DNA from: Chloroflexota bacterium
Lineage (GTDB): Bacteria; Chloroflexota; UBA6077; CF-72
Assembly (NCBI GenBank): GCA_019247135.1
Contig: JAFAPL010000316.1
Location: forward strand, 1-13,041
DNA: 13,041 nt
Reading direction: 5' to 3'
In this document: in pieces, positions 11,447 through 13,041 of the stretch
How positions within the stretch are numbered: the first letter of the stretch is position 1
Layout: each line of letters starts with the position of its first letter
Notes under the pieces: model-generated
Seen by the model: the letters and a program-made list of their open reading frames with translations, nothing else
Databases searched by the model: none
Told to the model about the DNA's origin: nothing
Made by a program: the position numbers and the translations under genes

Positions 11447-12505
11447 GTGCGGCTGACCAGCATGCTGACCGCGATCGACGCGCACGCGGGTGGTGAGCCG
11501 GGCCGTGTGATCGTCGGCGGCGTGCTCGACGTGCCTGGGGCGACCATGTTTCAGAAGATGCAGTACTTGCAGCAGCATGCGGATGGTTTGCGCAAACGCA
11601 TGCTGCGCGAGCCGCGCGGCTACCCGGGCTTGTGCTGCAACCTGGTTCTGCCGCCCACGCGACCCGAAGCCGACGCGGGCTTCGTGATCATGGAGCAGAC
11701 CGATTATCCGCCCATGTCCGGCAGCAACACGATCTGTGTGGCTACGGTGCTGCTCGAGACGGGCATGCTGCCCATGCGCGAGCCGGTCACCGAGCTCACG
11801 TTGGAAGCACCGGCCGGACTCGTGCGCGTGCGCGCCGAGTGTGCCAACGGCAAGGTGCGCAGCGTCACTTTCCGCAACGTGCCCGCCTTCGCCGTCCTGC
11901 TCGATGCCCCGCTCGAGGTGCCGCGACTCGGCACACTCAGCGTCGACCTGGCGTATGGCGGCATGTTCTACGTCATCGCCGACGCGACCGCGCTCGGGCT
12001 GCGGCTGCTGCCAGAAGAAGGGCGCGAGCTGGTCAGGCTGGGCGAGATGATCAAAGCCGCCGCCCGCGAGCAGCTGAGTTTTCAGCATCCCGAAAACCCG
12101 GCCATCTCCTCACTCAGCACCGCCCTGCTGTCAGGCCCGCCTCACGGTCCGCACGCCGACATGCGAAACGCCGTCGTCATTTCGACCGGCGACTTCGACT
12201 GGGAGCGGCCCGACACGTGGACTGGCGCGCTCGATCGCTCCGCGTGCGGCACCGGCACGTGCGCCAGGATGGCCAGCCTGTACGCGCGCGGCCAGCTGCC
12301 CTTGAGAAAGCCGTTCCGCCACGAGAGCGTCCTGGGCACCGTCTTCACCGGCTGCCTGGAAGAAGAGACACGCGTCGGACCGTACACGGCGGTCGTCCCG
12401 ACGATCAGCGGCCAGGCCTGGATCACGGGCATCAGCCAGTACGTGCTGGACGCCGAGGATCCTTTTCCGGAAGGCTTCACCGTGGGCGACCTCTGGCCGG
12501 CCTGA
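11447..12505 (+). CDS. Proline racemase superfamily enzyme, Ser/Cys active-site type
   Basis: A 352-aa, full-length member with two symmetrical halves. The first catalytic motif, normally MCGHGTIA, reads MSGSNTICVAT with Ser91 in place of the base Cys. The second, DRSACGTGTCARMA, keeps Cys267. GDFDWERPDTW (248-258) and GTVFTG (297-302) are also typical. Family knowledge: Cys/Cys pairs are proline racemases or 4-hydroxyproline epimerases, and changed pairs occur in hydroxyproline epimerase/dehydratase variants. The substrate here is probably a proline or hydroxyproline derivative but is not established. GTG 11447 is preceded by GAGAGG with 6-nt spacing. It lies 33 nt after the GNAT gene and so probably belongs to the same transcript. 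Oddity: the last 11 codons and the stop are duplicated directly downstream (36-bp tandem repeat), so read-through of the first TGA would add 12 residues repeating the same C-terminus. Confidence 0.9.
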   Translation: MRLTSMLTAIDAHAGGEPGRVIVGGVLDVPGATMFQKMQYLQQHADGLRKRMLREPRGYPGLCCNLVLPPTRPEADAGFVIMEQTDYPPMSGSNTICVATVLLETGMLPMREPVTELTLEAPAGLVRVRAECANGKVRSVTFRNVPAFAVLLDAPLEVPRLGTLSVDLAYGGMFYVIADATALGLRLLPEEGRELVRLGEMIKAAAREQLSFQHPENPAISSLSTALLSGPPHGPHADMRNAVVISTGDFDWERPDTWTGALDRSACGTGTCARMASLYARGQLPLRKPFRHESVLGTVFTGCLEEETRVGPYTAVVPTISGQAWITGISQYVLDAEDPFPEGFTVGDLWPA

Positions 12506-12547: not shown

Positions 12548-12576
12548 TTGACTCCTCCGAACATACGTTCTATCAT
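12548..12576 (+). promoter_or_regulatory. Promoter with embedded LexA (SOS) box
   Basis: The -35 TTGACT (12548-12553) and -10 TATCAT (12571-12576) are separated by exactly 17 bp. The end of the spacer is CGAACATACGTTCT (12558-12571), which contains GAAC-N4-GTTC, the Gram-positive-type LexA operator also reported in Dehalococcoides. Bound LexA would block polymerase, so DNA damage would induce this promoter. A good Shine-Dalgarno (AAAGGAGG, 12583-12590) follows, but only ten codons of open frame (GTG 12590 to TAG 12622) come after it. The next gene is ispH, about 105 nt downstream. Confidence 0.75.
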
Positions 12577-12589
12577 CCACTCAAAGGAG

Positions 12590-12622
12590 GTGCCTGTCAA
12601 GAGTTTTTCTGAGCTGCTGTAG
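12590..12622 (+). other. Ten-codon open frame after the SOS-type promoter
   Basis: GTG 12590 opens a frame for VPVKSFSELL and stops at TAG 12620-12622. The GTG overlaps the end of the AGGAGG Shine-Dalgarno, so spacing is wrong for normal initiation. It may be a leader peptide, the remnant of a lost SOS gene's beginning, or chance. The 182-nt gap 12506-12687 holds otherwise only the second repeat copy, the SOS promoter and a possible ispH -10. Confidence 0.2.
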
Positions 12623-12665
12623 AGACGAAAACTGAATAGTCGGCCGGCCCGGGGCGAGCGCGGAC

Positions 12666-12671
12666 GATAAT
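12666..12671 (+). promoter_or_regulatory. Possible -10 element of ispH
   Basis: GATAAT differs from TATAAT at one base and lies 16 nt before ATG 12688. It would give a short leader containing the purine stretch GAAGAGAG (12679-12685 approximately). No -35 is present at 17 bp, where the sequence is GC-only. Confidence 0.35.
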
Positions 12672-12687
12672 AGATTCGAAGAGAGCT

Positions 12688-13041
12688 ATGGGGTTCGTTG
12701 TCTTGTTGGCCCAGCCGCGCGGGTTCTGCGCTGGGGTGGAGCGCGCGATCCGCACGGTCGAGCTGGCGCTGGATGCCAGGGCGGCGGGTGACGAGCGACC
12801 GGTCTACGTGCGTCACGAGATCGTGCACAACAAGGTGGTTGTGGACGACCTGCGAGCGCGCGGGGCGGTGTTCGTGGACGACACGTTGGAGATCCCGTCA
12901 GGGGCGACGGCGGTGTTTTCGGCGCACGGCGTCTCGCCCCTGGTGCGCGCCGAGGCGGCCGCGAGAGACCTGGTCACGCTGGACGCGACGTGTCCGCTCG
13001 TCTCGCGTGTGCACGCGGCGGTGCTGCGTTACGCCGCGCGC
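12688..13041 (+). CDS. ispH: 4-hydroxy-3-methylbut-2-enyl diphosphate reductase (3' end outside window)
   Basis: The first 118 residues of IspH (LytB), the last enzyme of the MEP isoprenoid pathway, which reduces HMBPP to IPP and DMAPP with a [4Fe-4S] cluster in the cytoplasm. Hallmarks seen: [11 protein letters not shown] with cluster ligand Cys14; YVRHEIVHN with substrate-binding His43; VFSAHGVSP with His80; [11 protein letters not shown] with the second cluster Cys102. The third Cys and the C-terminal domain are beyond the window. ATG 12688 is chosen because it sits at the normal IspH N-terminus and has a weak purine-rich ribosome site (GAAGAGAG). It is separated from the racemase gene by 182 nt holding an SOS-type promoter, which may or may not drive it. 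Confidence 0.96.

Follow-up and report, generated by a model that had tools for sequence, protein, structure and literature searches.

LexA binds boxes of the type GAAC-N4-GTTC in Dehalococcoides. The same palindrome serves as LexA motif in Bacillus subtilis; confirmation in Mycobacterium tuberculosis and extension to Gram-positive bacteria came afterwards (PMC3323433). A first-pass annotation of the present locus had likewise named LexA binding in Gram-positives and in Dehalococcoides. In Streptomyces, the targets of the LexA regulon include an error-prone polymerase and radical-SAM enzymes for the repair of UV cross-links (PMC9380542). Our literature search returned, among the papers listed, none on a LexA SOS box in Dehalococcoides, and none, with subscription papers mostly outside its scope, that joins LexA or the SOS response with ispH, lytB or isoprenoid biosynthesis.

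The window analysed here, a stretch of 13,041 nt from a soil-type bacterium, carries a putative LexA-controlled promoter in the 182-nt gap between a proline racemase family gene and ispH (Table 1). On re-reading, the two hexamers, the 17-nt spacer and the box within it proved to lie exactly where the first-pass annotation had put them. The box is exact and palindromic and overlaps or adjoins the core promoter, the arrangement expected of a LexA-repressed SOS promoter, and it is the single exact GAAC-N4-GTTC in the window. Copies with one mismatch number 7 against 4.66 expected, which puts looser boxes at chance level. The window holds two sigma-70-like hexamer pairs, the second overlapping the first on the minus strand; as the shuffle mean is 0.8, the hexamers alone are weak proof of a promoter.

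Table 1. Features of the racemase-ispH region, in window coordinates.
Feature	Position	Strand	Evidence
Proline racemase family gene	11447-12505	+	PF05544, E 3.6e-119
Tandem duplication of 36 bp, two copies, 97% identical, covering the racemase 3' end with its stop codon	12470-12541	+	
-35 hexamer TTGACT	12548-12553	+	Sequence read; TTGAC at the same place in 14 kin promoters
Spacer, 17 nt	12554-12570	+	
Putative LexA box GAACATACGTTC, palindromic, inside the spacer and abutting the -10	12559-12570	+	Exact GAAC-N4-GTTC
-10 hexamer TATCAT	12571-12576	+	Box/-10 geometry as in kin recA and other kin sites
-10 to ispH start, 111 nt	12577-12687	+	
Shine-Dalgarno-like AAAGGAGG	12583-12590	+	Sequence read
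Ten-codon frame (GTG counted), GTG at 12590-12592 to TAG at 12620-12622	12590-12622	+	
ispH, 5' part of 118 codons up to the end of the window	12688-13041	+	NCBIfam NF002189, E 7e-49 (fragment scores below the full-length cut-off)

The window was placed near a Chloroflexota order that includes UBA6077 and for which 16 genomes were used, among them that of Chloroflexi bacterium UBA6077 (G001, locus L001). A search with ispH in 400 genomes drawn from the phylum gave three close kin, G155, G243 and G171, with 89, 88 and 86% identity. Upstream of lexA, an exact GAAC-N4-GTTC was present within 400 nt in 15 of the 15 loci examined (14 genomes; 18 family matches, with the weak partial L140, L141 and L142 excluded). 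Upstream of recA (23 RecA-family matches, nine weak or partial ones excluded), none of the 14 loci examined had the exact box, and 12 had a one-mismatch form, GAAC-N4-GT[G/A]C, followed by a -10-like hexamer starting with TA, which in several loci is a clear TATAAT. The other two are L148, with two mismatches, and L150, cut by the contig end. Taken together, the exact lexA boxes and the variant recA boxes indicate that the order employs the GAAC-N4-GTTC box. Read from the sequence, the layout of the window matches that of kin recA, box first and -10 after it. The variation at recA is itself regular: across L143-L156 the second half of the box reads GTGC or GTAC, not GTTC, at the 12 loci, a consistent asymmetric variant.

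The pattern GAACNNNNGTTCTA was found 114 times in seven genomes, against 31 matches for the reversed-pattern control, full palindromes being counted on both strands. Inspection of these matches (all of those in G155, G243 and G171 and a subset in the other four genomes) showed dnaE-like, dinB, ssb, ku, gyrB, Lhr-like helicase and lexA genes behind some of the sites, while many precede nothing recognised. In each of the three close kin, a LexA-type box runs directly into a TATACT -10 before a gyrB-like gene (L231, L249 and L257, the assignment resting on Pfam for L231 and made by eye for the other two).

The full layout, TTGAC-N4-7-GAACN4GTTCTANNNT, is far more selective, with 14 occurrences in the 16 genomes (~77 Mb from rounded sizes) against none for the reversed-pattern control, in agreement with the earlier claim that so exact a fit is unlikely to arise by chance. 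Six of the 14 sites precede radical-SAM proteins nearest the Rv2578c family (PF04055 above its cut-off; NCBIfam E 1.7e-93 to 1.8e-86, below the equivalog cut-off), and two precede Y-family polymerases (PF00817). The remaining six stand before one DUF5131 protein, two HlyD/RND-adaptor-like proteins, two 93-aa proteins and one frame without a family.

Some of these genes deserve mention in their own right. The 93-aa proteins (L292 in G243, L305 in G171) lie behind strong LexA-type promoters and have no Pfam match; a 113-aa frame in G155 (L225), preceded by a box whose -10 is weaker, resembles them by eye, and the three are a candidate for an unnamed SOS protein family. The HlyD/RND-adaptor-like genes L293 (G155) and L294 (G171) follow LexA-type promoters with leaders of 67 and 183 nt, respectively, and raise the question of SOS-linked efflux in this order; both have a Biotin_lipoyl_2 match, the family matches of L293 being weak and below cut-offs.

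Scored on a matrix built from the 14 kin sites, the window site reaches 29.8 bits, within the 24.9-32.7 bits of the training sites, whose scores are optimistic since they define the matrix; the window was absent from the training, but the collecting pattern had been modelled on it. The second-best position in the window scores 7.8 bits, and no position in 2.39 Mb of 80 other loci, both strands, reached 29.8 bits in a scan of those positions where the box would open with GA. With the exact box before kin lexA, its one-base variant before recA and the layout counts, the site described in the first-pass annotation as a LexA-controlled promoter is well supported, and on comparative sequence grounds we hold it very probable that the LexA-repressed promoter at 12548-12576 is real.

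What the promoter serves is less straightforward. The observation that no SOS gene stands behind it holds within the window, where only the ten-codon frame and ispH lie downstream. Both the Shine-Dalgarno-like stretch and the ten codons noted earlier are present; however, the GTG overlaps AAAGGAGG and no ATG, GTG or TTG follows at ordinary spacing, so that the frame lacks a properly spaced start and is probably not a gene. Between the -10 and ispH, a scan for loops of 3-8 nt found no terminator-like site on the plus strand. The arms AAAAAGCTTGAC and GTCAAGAG-TTTTT were considered as a terminator and rejected, as they fold no better than shuffles (two stretches on the plus strand gave z of -0.44 and -1.03, the minus strand 0.06). 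A structured leader was likewise discarded: 197 of 200 shuffles of 12577-12690 fold at least as well (z 1.88), and Rfam has no match in the window. Just 5' of ispH, a GATAAT at 12666-12671 may be another promoter of the gene.

A leader of this length is not the rule in the order. Among 36 high-scoring kin sites, the distance from the -10 to the following ORF is below 20 nt in 14, below 60 nt in 24 and at least 60 nt in 9, with no long ORF behind the other 3, which makes the 111-nt gap a minority case; these lengths are rough, because the longest ORF was taken and is sometimes not the gene (at L304 it is a frame other than the polymerase). Besides the two adaptor-like genes, yqeY (81 nt) and ssb (57 nt) have long leaders, and the long-leader cases comprise real families (HlyD/RND-adaptor-like, YqeY) as well as ORFs that are possibly not genes.

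Conservation at ispH gives a different picture. In none of the 44 other loci, taken as the best-matching loci of the ispH searches, do the 300 nt before ispH contain an exact box (one of them has only 143 nt of upstream DNA). Boxes with one mismatch occur there in six loci, against about five expected by chance, and a copy at -61 of the G155 ispH was set aside on this account. In the three close kin, 9.7, 15.7 and 13.2 kb around ispH contain no exact box. The racemase-ispH order is kept in G155 and G171, and their intergenic regions hold neither an exact box nor an ORF of at least 90 aa. The first-pass annotation had proposed the corresponding region of relatives as a test of a conserved promoter; the site is missing in the three close kin, which is one half of what it had named as evidence against a conserved role. 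As a candidate SOS regulon gene, ispH has no upstream box conserved in its orthologues and no plus-strand terminator-like site separating it from the box found here. The lack of the site in kin means that it is either a lineage-specific gain or the relic of something gained and then lost, and it appears specific to this lineage.

The possibility that an SOS gene 3' of ispH is the true target was also considered and dropped, the next large frame in G171 having no Pfam or NCBIfam match (in G155 and G243 the check covered frames only). On the other side, the nearest racemase, P0003 on a 9,424-nt JGI contig, is 92% identical; the closest organism-named racemases among the matches listed belong to Chloroflexi/Chloroflexota MAGs, and among the racemase relatives listed (80 of 329 confirmed) none had ispH alongside at E 1e-8 or better. 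At 3-422, where the window begins, lies the C-terminal part of a UvrA-like gene.

Our preferred explanation, to which we give a probability of roughly 0.55, is a functional LexA promoter that adds a lineage-specific, SOS-inducible input to ispH. By computation, the anatomy of promoter and box is as described, it fits the LexA sites of the clade, and no terminator-like site or credible gene intervenes; with 111 nt free of both, the likeliest outcome is an additional, damage-inducible transcription of ispH. Binding of LexA, the place where transcription starts, its continuation into ispH and any gain for the cell are inferred. Mechanistically, in undamaged cells LexA would sit on GAACATACGTTC, cover the spacer and block RNA polymerase. 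Upon DNA damage, removal of LexA would let transcription start near 12583 and run through a putative leader of ~105 nt into ispH, giving the gene an SOS-inducible input by way of a box that kin ispH genes lack. Inducible ispH, one of three options listed in the first-pass annotation, is thus the most economical of them, with kin leaders of 57-183 nt as precedents; against it speak the absence of the box at the other ispH loci, those of the three close kin included, a gap longer than at most kin sites, the possible second ispH promoter at 12666-12671 and a LexA assignment made through kin.

IspH, a [4Fe-4S] enzyme, completes the non-mevalonate isoprenoid pathway. It is tempting to go further and propose that ispH joined the SOS response when this lineage gained a LexA promoter that raises isoprenoid supply during DNA damage, but we consider this stronger version doubtful. 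If true, cells under DNA damage would have more isoprenoid for quinones and for the lipid carrier of the cell wall. If, instead, the site yields mere lineage-specific read-through, it would be a promoter gain or a relic and otherwise ordinary.

The main competing explanation is that the promoter formerly served an SOS gene, or an insert under SOS control, which has since been lost, leaving read-through into ispH as incidental. We judge this possible, though clearly less probable than inducible ispH. It would account for a good Shine-Dalgarno that lacks a start codon at the usual spacing and for the absence of the site around kin ispH, and the 36-bp tandem duplication directly 5' of the promoter points to rearrangement of the gap, which fits gain as well as loss. 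Searches for what was lost argue the other way: in a comparison with the genomes of the order at E up to 10, where most matches are due to chance, the region matched, among the matches listed, only in the racemase tail, the box and chance-level pieces, and its three frames, cut at stops, gave a best E of 0.096 against the ORFs behind kin GAAC-N4-GTTCTA sites. Since G155 and G171 have no ORF of at least 90 aa between racemase and ispH, the missing gene would have to have been both gained and lost within this lineage. The relic proposed earlier therefore stands as a rival, but the coding remnant of an SOS gene that it calls for was not found behind the promoter. A phage or mobile element as the origin was also looked into and rejected, as there was no phage match and the one plasmid match (26 nt, E 0.1) lies elsewhere in the query. 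One viral contig has the 18-mer core in different flanks, and the Shine-Dalgarno stretch has no exact viral match.

The remaining earlier option, a short RNA made upon SOS induction or else a peptide of ten codons, would make direct use of the Shine-Dalgarno and the frame behind it. It has lost most of its appeal and seems improbable to us, given the overlap of the GTG with the Shine-Dalgarno, a leader that folds worse than its shuffles and lacks an Rfam match, and the absence of a terminator-like site after the ten codons.

Less probable still is control of a divergent minus-strand transcript by the box. The second sigma-70-like pair of the window (TTGACA at 12600-12595, 17 nt, GATGAT at 12577-12572) would place the box just 3' of the -10, as kin lexA promoters were read; however, that -10 matches at four of six positions, the adjoining frames in this direction are solely antisense to the racemase, and a scan of both strands with the kin matrix selects the plus orientation alone. 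Finally, a chance resemblance with no LexA-controlled promoter at all, for which one could cite the lack of the site at kin ispH, the near-chance hexamer pairs and a LexA assignment drawn from kin and not from the organism's own lexA, is very hard to reconcile with the layout counts in ~77 Mb and a score unequalled in 2.39 Mb.

The analysis describes the SOS box of an uncultured Chloroflexota order and how its promoters are laid out, and ties a core metabolic gene to a clear LexA-type promoter. Compared with the Gram-positive SOS box, the site has all eight fixed bases and likewise overlaps the promoter; it differs in belonging to a Chloroflexota lineage, in having the -10 fused to the box, and in that LexA binding is putative here. 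The genes behind the sites of this order, radical-SAM proteins and polymerases, resemble the LexA targets described for Streptomyces (PMC9380542). Within the order, the window has the same box/-10 geometry as the SOS promoters of the Rv2578c-type radical-SAM, Y-family polymerase, dnaE-like and recA genes, and with the 14 full-layout promoters it shares TTGAC and a score within their range. These promoters, however, serve repair-type genes whose start often follows the -10 at less than 20 nt (14 of 36), whereas in the window 111 nt lead to ispH. Close counterparts are also the promoters of L293 and L294, two loci only, which likewise have a non-repair gene behind a long leader, in their case adaptor-like and not ispH.
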